From positions 1 through 51,656 of the forward strand of contig JAJYZJ010000008.1 in assembly GCA_021800035.1 (NCBI GenBank): a DNA stretch of 51,656 nt, in the 5' to 3' direction. Of this stretch, positions 28,552 through 51,656 are shown piece by piece. Positions within the stretch are counted from its first letter, which is position 1. The number at the start of each line of letters is the position of its first letter. The position numbers and the translations under genes are program-made. The stretch comes from an archaeon (lineage in GTDB: Archaea; Thermoproteota; Thermoprotei_A; Marsarchaeales; Marsarchaeaceae). Below the pieces are notes generated by a model. The model was not told where the DNA came from, made no database searches, and worked only from the letters and a program-made list of their open reading frames with translations.

Positions 28552-29604
28552 TTGAGCTCTGTCAGGCAATCGCACACAATCAGTTTACCCGTGAGGGTAG
28601 AGGTAGGGAGGGACATAATAGAGAACACAGGCAGCATACTCTCCAAGCATCTTTTTTGTGGCGACATCGCAGTTCTCACGGGGCCAACCGTCGGTAAGCG
28701 ATACATTTCCAGACTTGAGGAGTCGCTACGAGAGGGGGGTTTCACACCCGCCGTATTTACCGTAGGCGACTCCAGCCTACGCGAATCTGCGCGAATAGTC
28801 GTTGTCCTTCCTCGCAACACTTGCGCTATCGTAGGGTTCGGCGGCGGAAGGATTCTGGACACCGCCAAAATGGTTGCACATTCTACCAATTTGAATTTCA
28901 TAAGTATACCTACAAGCGCAGCTCACGATGGTATAGCCTCGCCACAGGCCTCTTTGAAAGGGCTCAACGGTGCGCACTCCGTTAGAGTCAAGACGCCGTT
29001 TATTATTATCGCTGACTCCGCTCTGATTGCGCAATCGCCTAAGGCGCTAACGCTGAGTGGAATAGGAGACGTGCTTGCAAAATTTTCTTCAGTGCTCGAT
29101 AGTAGGCTCGCCCAGGAAAGGGGAGAGTACGTGGGAGACTATGCAATTTCGCTCGCCGAAATGTCCGCGAAACTAGTTTTTGATAATATGGATCGCATAG
29201 TTTCACTTGAAGAATCTGGTATCAGGACCCTGCTTGAGGCATTGATCAGTAACGGCATTGCTATGGCAATTGCCGGTAGTAGTAGACCGTGTAGCGGTAG
29301 TGAACATATGTTTGGACACGCGTTCGATTATCTCACATCCCATCGCATACTCCACGGTTATACGGTTCTTCTTGGGTGTCGGCTCTCGTTGGCGCTGCAT
29401 GGCCAAGATTGGGAGAGGATTTTGATTCCAGCTGAGGTAGCAGGAATCCCATGTCGCGGACGGGACTTCGAAGTACCTTCAGTTTACGTCGAGAGGGCGC
29501 TCGCCTTCGCCTCGAAGATAAGGCCAGAGAGGTACACAATTCTTGCCAGCGGAATTTCACTCTCACGAGCCTCTGAGGTGGTTAGGAAAACAGGTGCTAT
29601 CTAA
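28552..29604 (+). CDS. egsA: sn-Glycerol-1-phosphate dehydrogenase
   Basis: 350 residues. It reduces DHAP to sn-glycerol-1-phosphate with NAD(P)H and zinc, setting the archaeal lipid stereochemistry. Motifs: VEVGRDIIENTGSIL at the N-terminus, VGFGGGRILDTAK for the cofactor, ISIPTSAAHDGIASPQASL, LSGIGDVLAKFSSVLD, and the metal residues in GSEHMFGHAFDYL and ILHGYTVLLG. TTG start. It supplies the GGGP synthase at 9724, which is not linked to it. Divergent from psmB. Confidence 0.95.
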   Translation: MSSVRQSHTISLPVRVEVGRDIIENTGSILSKHLFCGDIAVLTGPTVGKRYISRLEESLREGGFTPAVFTVGDSSLRESARIVVVLPRNTCAIVGFGGGRILDTAKMVAHSTNLNFISIPTSAAHDGIASPQASLKGLNGAHSVRVKTPFIIIADSALIAQSPKALTLSGIGDVLAKFSSVLDSRLAQERGEYVGDYAISLAEMSAKLVFDNMDRIVSLEESGIRTLLEALISNGIAMAIAGSSRPCSGSEHMFGHAFDYLTSHRILHGYTVLLGCRLSLALHGQDWERILIPAEVAGIPCRGRDFEVPSVYVERALAFASKIRPERYTILASGISLSRASEVVRKTGAI

Positions 29605-29675
29605 AATCTGCTGCGCTGTGATGTAGGTGTGCAGGTGTCACGGGTTTAATAAGTGGCAATAAAAACAAGAACTTC

Positions 29676-30164
29676 ATGAATCATGAGACGAGGGCCAAGG
29701 CAGCGCCTGCCTCACAGGGAACCACTGGTAAGAAGATGATCACTGTAATACCCACCGTTATAGCCAAAGAGGGCTATAGCTTCTCATTTAGGCGTGACCC
29801 AGGACCAGAATGTACGGGATGTAAGGTACGGAGTCCATGTCTGGACAACTTGGACGTTGGTCATTTATACGTGATAAAGGAAGTTCGTTCGGCTGAGCAT
29901 TACTGTGCGCTAACTGGGCTGAAGGCAAAAGTCGCAGAGGTACAGAAGATCCAGACACGAATTTCTCTCGAGAAGCAGCGCATCATGGTCGGTGCGACCA
30001 CAACCTATTCTAAGGTTAGGTGCAACTGGAAGTTCTGTCCCAATTATACGTCCTGTGTTGCGAATGGGTTGGAAGACGGACTAAAGATAAAGGTCAAAGA
30101 GAAGCAGGAGGAAGTGTCGTGCCCGAGAGGTTTCAAGCTGGTGTATGCTGTTGTAAATCATTAG
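29676..30164 (+). CDS. UPF0179 cysteine-rich protein
   Basis: 162 residues. Several cysteine clusters (CTGCKVRSPC about 46-55, HYC near 77, CNWKFCPNYTSC about 116-127, SCPRGF near 149) could bind a metal or an iron-sulfur cluster. ITVIPTVIAKEGYSFSFR begins the conserved UPF0179 region. The function is unknown. A TATA-like TTTAATAAG (29644-29652) lies about 28 bp before the ATG at 29676, supporting a leaderless start and a 20-residue N-terminal extension ahead of the usual family start (Met21). Overlaps the convergent FKBP gene by 32 nt. Confidence 0.85.
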   Translation: MNHETRAKAAPASQGTTGKKMITVIPTVIAKEGYSFSFRRDPGPECTGCKVRSPCLDNLDVGHLYVIKEVRSAEHYCALTGLKAKVAEVQKIQTRISLEKQRIMVGATTTYSKVRCNWKFCPNYTSCVANGLEDGLKIKVKEKQEEVSCPRGFKLVYAVVNH

Positions 30165-48166: not shown

Positions 48167-48757
48167 TCAAGCGACGCTGCTGAAAGTCGAGTCCACGCCA
48201 ACCCCCACGGCCATTCTGCCTATGCCGTTATGTGACGGTGAGACAGGGGAAAACCATGACAGCGTGAACATCACCGTCACTTGCGAACTGAAGCCTGTGG
48301 TCGTGATTCGAGTGGGAAGATAAAGACCGAGCGCAGTCACATTGGAGGCACCTGTCGACATAGCGCAGTCTCCTCCTGGGAGAGATGATACACCTTGGGC
48401 AAACATGACTTCAAACGTCGAATTTTCTATGTAACCAGAAAAATTCTTCTCGGGCTCTGTTGTCTGGGCGTAGCAGGATGTCACAAGGGAGGGATACCCA
48501 TCAGCTGAGACGTTCGTGAAGGTATACCAGTAGCTTCTGTTCATAACAAGGTTAATCGAACAGAAGTCACTAGAGCAGTAGGACTGACTGAGGATAGGGA
48601 AGACGAAGCTCCTTGAAAAAGGAATGCTGGGTATCACCTCTCCAGAGGAGGGAGAACGTAAATGTTCCGTGAAAGCTCCCGTCGCTCCAAACATGGATAT
48701 GACAATCAGCGCGAGCGCACAGCCCGATCCAATATGTATGTTTGTTGTTCGGTTCAT
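48167..48757 (-). CDS. Secreted or membrane-tethered hypothetical protein
   Basis: 196 residues that I do not recognise. N-terminal signal or anchor (GSGCALALIVISMFGATGAF, about 10-29), then a Ser/Thr/Tyr-rich extracellular domain with Cys pairs (YCSSDFC near 60, and CYAQ, GDC further on) that may form disulfides. Sequons (NRS, NVS, NFS, NST, NVT) suggest N-glycosylation. C-terminal part is beta-rich (VTVMFTLSWFSPVSPS). ATG start. It lies beyond the ABC exporter on the same strand but transcribed separately. Confidence 0.6.
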   Translation of the reverse strand: MNRTTNIHIGSGCALALIVISMFGATGAFTEHLRSPSSGEVIPSIPFSRSFVFPILSQSYCSSDFCSINLVMNRSYWYTFTNVSADGYPSLVTSCYAQTTEPEKNFSGYIENSTFEVMFAQGVSSLPGGDCAMSTGASNVTALGLYLPTRITTTGFSSQVTVMFTLSWFSPVSPSHNGIGRMAVGVGVDSTFSSVA

Positions 48758-49930: not shown

Positions 49931-50348
49931 AGGGCAGGAGACGAAAGGAACTCAAAACGCCATTCAACAGGAAAGTAAAACCACCGGTCAAAATTTCCTA
50001 CAGCCGGCTTTGAGGAGGCTGAAAGTCCACCAGCCTCAAAAACATTAGGCGTGCCGCTTAGTTGAAAAACCATATATTTTTCGGTTTGCCACCCGCTTTT
50101 GCTCTTAAAGCGCGGAATGTTGTGCGCGAGTAAAGATTCATTTTTTACTCTGCGTAGCTGACCCCAATGACGTCCTTAGATTGCCGCAAAGATTTCGCGA
50201 GCATTGCTAACGAGGATATTTCTCAGAGCTGCGTTGCGATTGTGAAACCAGAACTGTGTGTTTGCAGCGGGCCGGTAGCTATACACAACCTGAGAAATAT
50301 AGAAAAACTTAAGACGGCGCTGGTCACTATACGCTCTGAAACTTTAAA
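49931..50348. promoter_or_regulatory. Upstream region of the first pilin gene
   Basis: Contains a strong AT-rich TATA-like CCATATATTTTTCGG (50069-50083) and a further AT-rich segment CATTTTTTACTC (about 50139-50150). From 50295 on the sequence is identical to the upstream of the second pilin. A frame from 50167 runs to overlap the pilin start, but it is not conserved in the second copy, so I do not count it as a gene. Confidence 0.45.
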
Positions 50349-50506
50349 ATGAAGTCTCTTAGAGTAAACAACACTGGTAAAAAGCGCAAGGCAGGTCTGT
50401 CGAACGTAGTAGGTTCACTACTACTAATCATCCTTACCATCATCGCCGCTCTCCTTCTGGGCCACTTCGTCTTCGGCCTGTTCGCCTCGAACAGCCACAA
50501 CGCCGG
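50295..50506 (+). repeat. 212-nt direct repeat, copy 1
   Basis: By eye identical to 51407-51618, offset 1112 bp. It covers 54 nt before the pilin ATG and the first 52 or so codons (leader, signal peptide, hydrophobic helix and start of the head). Identity ends sharply within the Ala-Gly-Leu segment. Confidence 0.95.
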
Positions 50507-50852
50507 CCTCGAAGTCTCGGATGTGAGCGTGATTCTGCCGGGCGGAAACACCGTAAGCTCACCGACTTACGTGACCTTGACTATTACGGACAACGGCAAC
50601 GACCCGATCAGCATCGCGACAGGGGGCATTACAATGTTTAAAGGGAACACTGCTGGCTCCTTCGCAATCTCTCCAGCGGTCCCCTCCACTACAACCACTC
50701 TGCAGCCTGGTCAGAGCGTTACATTTACAACGACCGTTCCGGCAAATAATGGAGTCCAGGTGGGCCAGACCGTAGTCTTTACCGTCACCGCAACAGATAC
50801 GAACACGGGTCAGTCGCTCTCAACGCAGACTTCAACAGTTGTCGCTGACTGA
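50349..50852 (+). CDS. Type IV pilin-like protein (archaellin/adhesion type)
   Basis: 167 residues. Basic leader KKRKAG followed by LSNVVGSLLLIILTIIAALLLG: the class III signal peptide cut by FlaK/PibD-like prepilin peptidase, probably after Gly17, leaving a hydrophobic assembly helix. The mature head is a Thr/Val/Gly-rich beta-sandwich (DVSVILPGG, TYVTLTITDNGNDPISIATGG, TVVFTVTATD) with no cysteine. Archaeal adhesion pilins have this form; archaellin is possible but no fla genes are near. ATG start. First of at least two tandem genes. Confidence 0.9.
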   Translation: MKSLRVNNTGKKRKAGLSNVVGSLLLIILTIIAALLLGHFVFGLFASNSHNAGLEVSDVSVILPGGNTVSSPTYVTLTITDNGNDPISIATGGITMFKGNTAGSFAISPAVPSTTTTLQPGQSVTFTTTVPANNGVQVGQTVVFTVTATDTNTGQSLSTQTSTVVAD

Positions 50853-51406
50853 AAGCCCACTTTTCTTTCTTTTTTCTTTTTAACTTATTTTCTTTGTTTT
50901 CCGATAGACTCGCACGGTCAGGTTCGTGTGCAGTTTTTTCTTGTAGTGCGTTGAGGATGATCCGGAGGATTCGTTGCTCTCGGCCGGTAGAATGTCGACT
51001 CGAACAATAGTGCGCAAAGCCTAGCCAATTGGTTCCCTCATCGACACCTAAGGGTTTGGCTCGCCCCTTCTTTAGGGATCTTCAACCTCAGCCGCGAGCA
51101 AGATTCAGGCTATTAAGAGCGAAGAGGCACTTGCCCACTTTCTCATGCGGGCCAGTGCCGAGCTTATCTCTGAGTCCTGCGCACTTTCTGCTTTTCGCAA
51201 TCGTGTAATTTAATGTCGCGTCTTGTGGGCGAGGTTTGGTCGTTTTTTGGTGGATCCTTATCCGTGACGCAATCTGTTTGTGCTTTGCGTTTTGGATCAC
51301 AGCTGCGATGGGCCAGTGTTGGCGCTTGATTGCCCGAGGGGCTCTGAATTTTCGTAGCGATTTATAGGACTAAAACAGTAGCTCAATATCTAGTTCTTGA
51401 TGCGGC
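50853..51406. terminator. Poly-T terminator and spacer between pilins
   Basis: Right after the first pilin stop comes a long pyrimidine/T tract (50859-50899: repeated TTTCTTTTT and TTATTTTC), a good archaeal terminator. The rest (to 51406) has no gene I can support; a minus frame at 51088-51300 is probably spurious. Confidence 0.55.
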
Positions 51407-51618
51407 AAATATAGAAAAACTTAAGACGGCGCTGGTCACTATACGCTCTGAAACTTTAAAATGAAGTCTCTTAGAGTAAACAACACTGGTAAAAAGCGCA
51501 AGGCAGGTCTGTCGAACGTAGTAGGTTCACTACTACTAATCATCCTTACCATCATCGCCGCTCTCCTTCTGGGCCACTTCGTCTTCGGCCTGTTCGCCTC
51601 GAACAGCCACAACGCCGG
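51407..51618 (+). repeat. 212-nt direct repeat, copy 2
   Basis: Second copy of the block at 50295-50506, identical by eye. Sequence before 51407 is unrelated to that before 50295, so the duplicated unit begins there. After 51618 the two pilin genes differ in codons but keep a similar protein start (SDVSVI). Confidence 0.95.
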
Positions 51619-51656
51619 GCTCAGGATAAGCGACGTGAGCGTGATCCAGCCGGGTG
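51461..51656 (+). CDS. Second type IV pilin-like gene, cut by window end
   Basis: The first 65 codons are present. The leader and hydrophobic helix are identical to the gene at 50349 (KKRKAG, LSNVVGSLLLIILTIIAALLLG), then the head begins LRISDVSVIQPG where the first copy has LEVSDVSVILPG. ATG at 51461. The 3' end lies outside the window. It belongs to a tandem pilin array that may extend further. Confidence 0.9.
   Translation, partial: MKSLRVNNTGKKRKAGLSNVVGSLLLIILTIIAALLLGHFVFGLFASNSHNAGLRISDVSVIQPG

Follow-up and report, generated by a model that had tools for sequence, protein, structure and literature searches.

Probable gene conversion between paralogous major pilin genes at the head of an archaeal pilus operon

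In Neisseria, the one expressed pilin gene, pilE, takes sequence from silent partial copies, pilS. The constant N-terminal part, the variable C-terminal part and the gene conversion that are outlined for this system (PMC4877100) have counterparts, as far as can be judged from sequence, at the archaeal locus described here, although here every pilin copy appears intact and capable of expression. The tandem arrangement of pilin genes is in itself well known from archaea (PMC4858521). The adhesion pilins PilA1-PilA6 of Haloferax volcanii are described in a review as having an almost identical H-domain and a different remainder, and each can form a pilus (PMC4371748). Several major pilins with a near-identical helix domain and a different remainder are also found at our locus; however, the H-domain conservation in Haloferax is presented there at the protein level, for genes whose regulation is separate from that of the assembly genes (PMC4371748), whereas the identity here reaches into silent sites and into the non-coding DNA before the start codon, with the pilin genes located at the assembly operon. 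In the Ups pili of Sulfolobales, partner recognition depends on a variable region of UpsA, and two pilin genes (UpsA/UpsB) lie next to ATPase and membrane-protein genes (PMC7064770), as would be the case here. Our system differs from Ups in gene order and in three extra minor pilins, and it scores far below the cut-offs of the UpsA equivalog of NCBIfam (41.5 bits versus 130) and of the UpsF model (140.5 bits versus 400 for the TadC/UpsF-like protein). The tandem filament genes flaB1 and flaB2 of Halorubrum lacusprofundi offer another parallel, the loss of flaB1 in one strain being attributed to recombination and deletion; unlike the genes considered here, they encode archaellins, which are 36% identical, and no long identical 5' block is reported for them in the part of that paper dealing with the two genes (PMC7349177). 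How archaeal pilin heads diversify is little studied. By title and abstract, no on-point paper on archaeal pilin gene conversion was found in the open-licence literature, nor is a DNA-level mosaic mentioned in the parts of the cited papers that deal with such genes.

The DNA stretch analyzed here (the window, 51,656 nt) is the entire contig C103 (51656/51656) of the metagenome-assembled genome (MAG) G000, which comprises 130 contigs and is 85% complete. Near its end it contains an exact direct repeat of 212 nt on the forward strand (50295-50506 and 51407-51618, spacing 1112), the sole repeat of at least 40 nt within the 51.7-kb window. Exact repeat comparison bore out to the base the observation of the first-pass annotation that the upstream 54 nt, the start codon, the leader and the helix are identical between two tandem pilin genes. 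Each copy is made up of 54 nt before the ATG (at 50349 in pilin-1 and 51461 in pilin-2) and 158 coding nt, which extend from codon 1 two bases into codon 53; the repeat is scored as 216 nt if one mismatch (51619) is tolerated. The abrupt end of identity, also noted earlier, holds for both borders, with 26/100 matching positions to the left, which is the chance level, and 22/34 to the right. The promoter-like box AACTTAAG (50306-50313 on the forward strand, ~36-43 nt before the ATG), which lies within the block and so is carried by both copies, is a putative TATA-like element; a TTAAG box ~40 nt before the ATG, a start codon and a leader are present in every pilin copy.

Both genes encode archaeal type IV pilins. 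Pilin-1 (50349-50852, forward strand, 167 aa, head A) and the fragment of pilin-2 (51461-51656, forward strand, head B from 51619), which is truncated because the contig ends there, match Pilin_N (PF07790) with 27.1 and 26.7 bits, respectively, above the curated cut-off of 25.2, and the starts of both score above the cut-off of the archaeal leader model TIGR02537. A charged leader (KKRKAGLS..) with a predicted class III processing site precedes a hydrophobic helix, followed by a beta head. The AlphaFold model of pilin-1, which has a mean pLDDT of 76 and is built on a shallow alignment, has a single helix (residues 16-47), with the beta strands starting at residue 54, so that the end of the block coincides with the helix/head border of the model. 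Heads A and B are divergent but, by their sequences, homologous, with 61/111 identical amino acids when head B is taken from a sister genome, the head of pilin-2 itself being known from 38 nt and an inferred 40-codon tail on contig C78. A sequence search of PDB with the pilin returned nothing at E 0.01, and the second match in a fold search of PDB was the AAP filament of S. acidocaldarius (E 1.3e-4, TM-score 0.44-0.50), which indicates a general pilin resemblance only. Because pilin-1 is followed by a T-rich tract (50860-50905, forward strand), a probable terminator, it probably forms its own transcription unit. The intergenic stretch up to the second block (50853-51406) yielded no match when compared with pilins and with two contigs of the sister genome.

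The window ends 38 nt past the second block. Contig C78 of the same genome opens inside the last 40 codons of a pilin (C78 3-125), followed after 15 nt by three small pilin-like genes and then by genes for a T2SSE-family ATPase and a TadC-type protein, the latter present as its start; both are also found on contig C24 of the sister MAG G001 (YP4.bin50, JAKAWJ01). C78 apparently continues pilin-2, since the sister genome and synteny support this join. The predicted operon would thus consist of a pilin, three minor pilins, a T2SSE/VirB11-type ATPase and a TadC/UpsF-like protein, with paralogous major pilins at its head. Seven Sulfolobaceae genomes, including Sulfolobales archaeon HS-7 (AP024596), have the same gene order of a major pilin, minor pilins 1-3, ATPase and TadC, the third minor pilin being undetected in place at the threshold used in two of the seven. 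In contrast to the locus described here, each of these operons has a single major pilin, and the long repeats around them lie outside the pilin genes, with none within. Because the operon order in Sulfolobaceae has one major pilin, pilin-2 seems to occupy the conserved place and to lead the operon, pilin-1 being an extra upstream gene. A close same-strand pair of strong Pilin_N matches occurs only in this genome among 226 of the class.

The suggestion that the array continues beyond the window is not supported. The window end is the contig end, C78 holds minor pilins and pilus machinery, and a search of the bin (130 contigs, 85% complete) yielded the two block copies and no third one, a count bounded by the fact that identical 1112-nt units in a tandem array would collapse in short-read assembly. 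In addition, the helix DNA of the block gave no match in IMG/VR.

The sister genome G001 has the same flank, with its contig C36 ending within pilin-1; the last five bases of this contig (AGATC) misfit the pilin and are possibly a sequencing-adapter remnant. Its contig C24 begins with a pilin tail and the same operon, followed by trxB and then, ~6 kb downstream, by a further pilin gene, pilin-3 (C24 6205-6702), with its own leader and its own upstream region, including a TTTAAG box at a similar distance before the gene. The front of pilin-3 differs from those of pilin-1 and pilin-2, and its head is of the pilin-2 type: pilin-2 is identical to the sister pilin-3 over window positions 51539-51654 and to pilin-1 before that. 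Thus pilin-2 looks like a mosaic of the front of pilin-1 and the head of pilin-3. In the pilin tree, pilin-1 and pilin-3 form a clade (99/97). Moreover, the last 127 nt of pilin-3 in G001 are identical to the end of its operon pilin, and 5/128 positions of the same 3' end differ between the two species. An identical run of precisely this length is what an assembler word length typically produces, and we infer a word length of 127 for these assemblies. The terminal 127 nt of the window (51530-51656, forward strand) begin one base after 51529, where the sister pilin-3 differs. As the break thus matches the assembly word, the simplest reading suggests that G000 also has a pilin-3 with a pilin-2 head and that the assembly graph broke there; contig C40 of G000 starts downstream of the expected place of pilin-3.

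Silent divergence (dS by Nei-Gojobori) is patchy along these genes. For pilin-1 and pilin-2, dS rises from 0.02 within the block to 1.7 where the head starts. The corresponding values for pilin-1 and the sister pilin-3 are 0.09 (codons 26-54) and 1.56 (head), with orthologues of G000 and G001 (ECH, minor pilins 1 and 2, ATPase) at 0.08-0.2. In the 126 nt of the block that can be compared with the sister genome, seven sites, of which five are non-coding, separate the orthologues and none separates the paralogues; in this comparison of two genomes, the Fisher test gives 0.014 for the same stretch and 0.0009 against the whole 212 nt. For the 3' end alone, the Fisher test gives a borderline 0.06. 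Run tests on silent sites yield p ~5e-4 for pilin-1/pilin-2, 5e-5 for pilin-1/pilin-3 and <=1e-3 for a second tandem pilin pair of the same genome (C7:28240-28692 and 29392-29817). The latter pair is itself a patchwork: it shares two exact tracts, one of 105 nt within the helix part and another of 164 nt at the 3' end, and has diverged in the middle and in the leaders; the same place in the sister genome holds one pilin, with a different head.

Patchy silent divergence together with paralogue identity above orthologue identity is the pattern of gene-converted tandem paralogues. Because the block shows almost no silent divergence, the heads are saturated and orthologues lie at a dS of 0.08-0.2, recent ectopic gene conversion between the pilin genes can be inferred, and the earlier proposal that a conserved cassette with variable surface domains was converted is strengthened further by the mosaic pilin-2 and the C7 patchwork. 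Judged by these distances, homogenization of the block is younger than the species split, since paralogues are closer there than orthologues, and the head types are older. Purifying selection at the DNA level was ruled out as the cause of block identity, the upstream 54 nt differing at five sites between the sister species; constraint on the helix at the protein level contributes to helix conservation, which counts against conversion alone. A plain one-off duplication, in which the front of pilin-1 was placed before the head-B gene, or the reverse, with no continuing conversion, would suffice for the block itself, as this needs one event and zero differences in 212 nt fit it. However, it leaves the identity of pilin-2 with the sister pilin-3 and the patchwork C7 pair unexplained, so that further events are needed, and we regard it as unlikely.

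We consider it likely that paralogous major pilins exchange DNA by gene conversion, with a homogenized assembly module and diversifying heads, that they co-assemble, and that the reshuffling of these expressed genes is slow, on an evolutionary scale, and involves no dedicated switch. The ectopic conversion would be driven by ordinary homologous recombination with the helix-coding DNA as its anchor. It would keep the assembly module of pilin-1 the same as that of pilin-2 and would likewise homogenize the heads of pilin-2 and pilin-3, making pilin-2 a mosaic. Since the core helices are identical, the subunits would fit the same filament core, which agrees with Haloferax PilA1-6, and probably form mixed filaments that carry different heads. 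By analogy with UpsA, the different heads may serve surface or partner recognition. Pilin-1 could also be lost through recombination between the direct repeats.

The first-pass annotation had raised phase or antigenic variation, in which recombination between the blocks would frequently swap or delete heads within a population. The long direct repeats 1112 nt apart would permit this, the heads are mosaic, and, as in pilE/pilS, a conserved 5' region is joined to a variable 3' region in recombining copies; moreover, the two species have strongly different heads in minor pilin 3, with flanks ~95% identical. On the other hand, silent promoterless head cassettes of the pilE/pilS type were absent from the 85% complete bin, only one extra head type is visible, and the events are seen on the scale of species divergence. 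The idea that heads would be swapped behind a single promoter holds only in part, since the promoter-like block is present in both copies and pilin-3 comes with its own; each gene, having a start, a leader and a promoter-like box, looks expressible. With an array that does not visibly extend, phase variation has no direct support and is, in our estimate, quite improbable, and so is a form of archaeal head switching in which expressed paralogues sharing a promoter/helix module exchange or lose their heads within populations, with those of minor pilins replaced in the same manner. Programmed variation is unproven here; the recombination reading is largely supported. An assembly artefact, with the second block made at the contig end by a wrong repeat path or strain mixing, might be suspected from two fragmented MAGs with a contig ending 38 nt past the block and both sister contigs ending in these genes, but it is very improbable, because unique sequence adjoins the block on its left and head B on its right, so that it would be spanned by overlapping 128-nt words anchored at both flanks, given the inferred word length of 127, and because head B and the operon position recur in an independent bin.

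If paralogous pilins do exchange DNA by conversion, the route of head diversification would be a simple one, with the DNA of the assembly helix as a fixed anchor and heads moving between paralogues. Pilin repertoires are probably undercounted, because short-read MAGs break in exactly these genes.

Several further observations were made in the two genomes. The head of minor pilin 3 (C78 1162-1725 in G000, compared with C24 in G001) is 53-73% identical between the species in most 60-nt bins, and the genes flanking it are ~95% identical; rapid divergence and replacement fit this pattern equally well. On the reverse strand of the window, 48167-48757 encodes a 196-aa protein with an N-terminal hydrophobic stretch, which has no Pfam or NCBIfam match and is kept in the sister genome. 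Finally, in G001 (C24 6205-8701) pilin-3 lies beyond trxB and is closely followed by a gene for a tetraether lipid synthase (Tes), and in G000 contig C40 starts between the expected pilin-3 and Tes.
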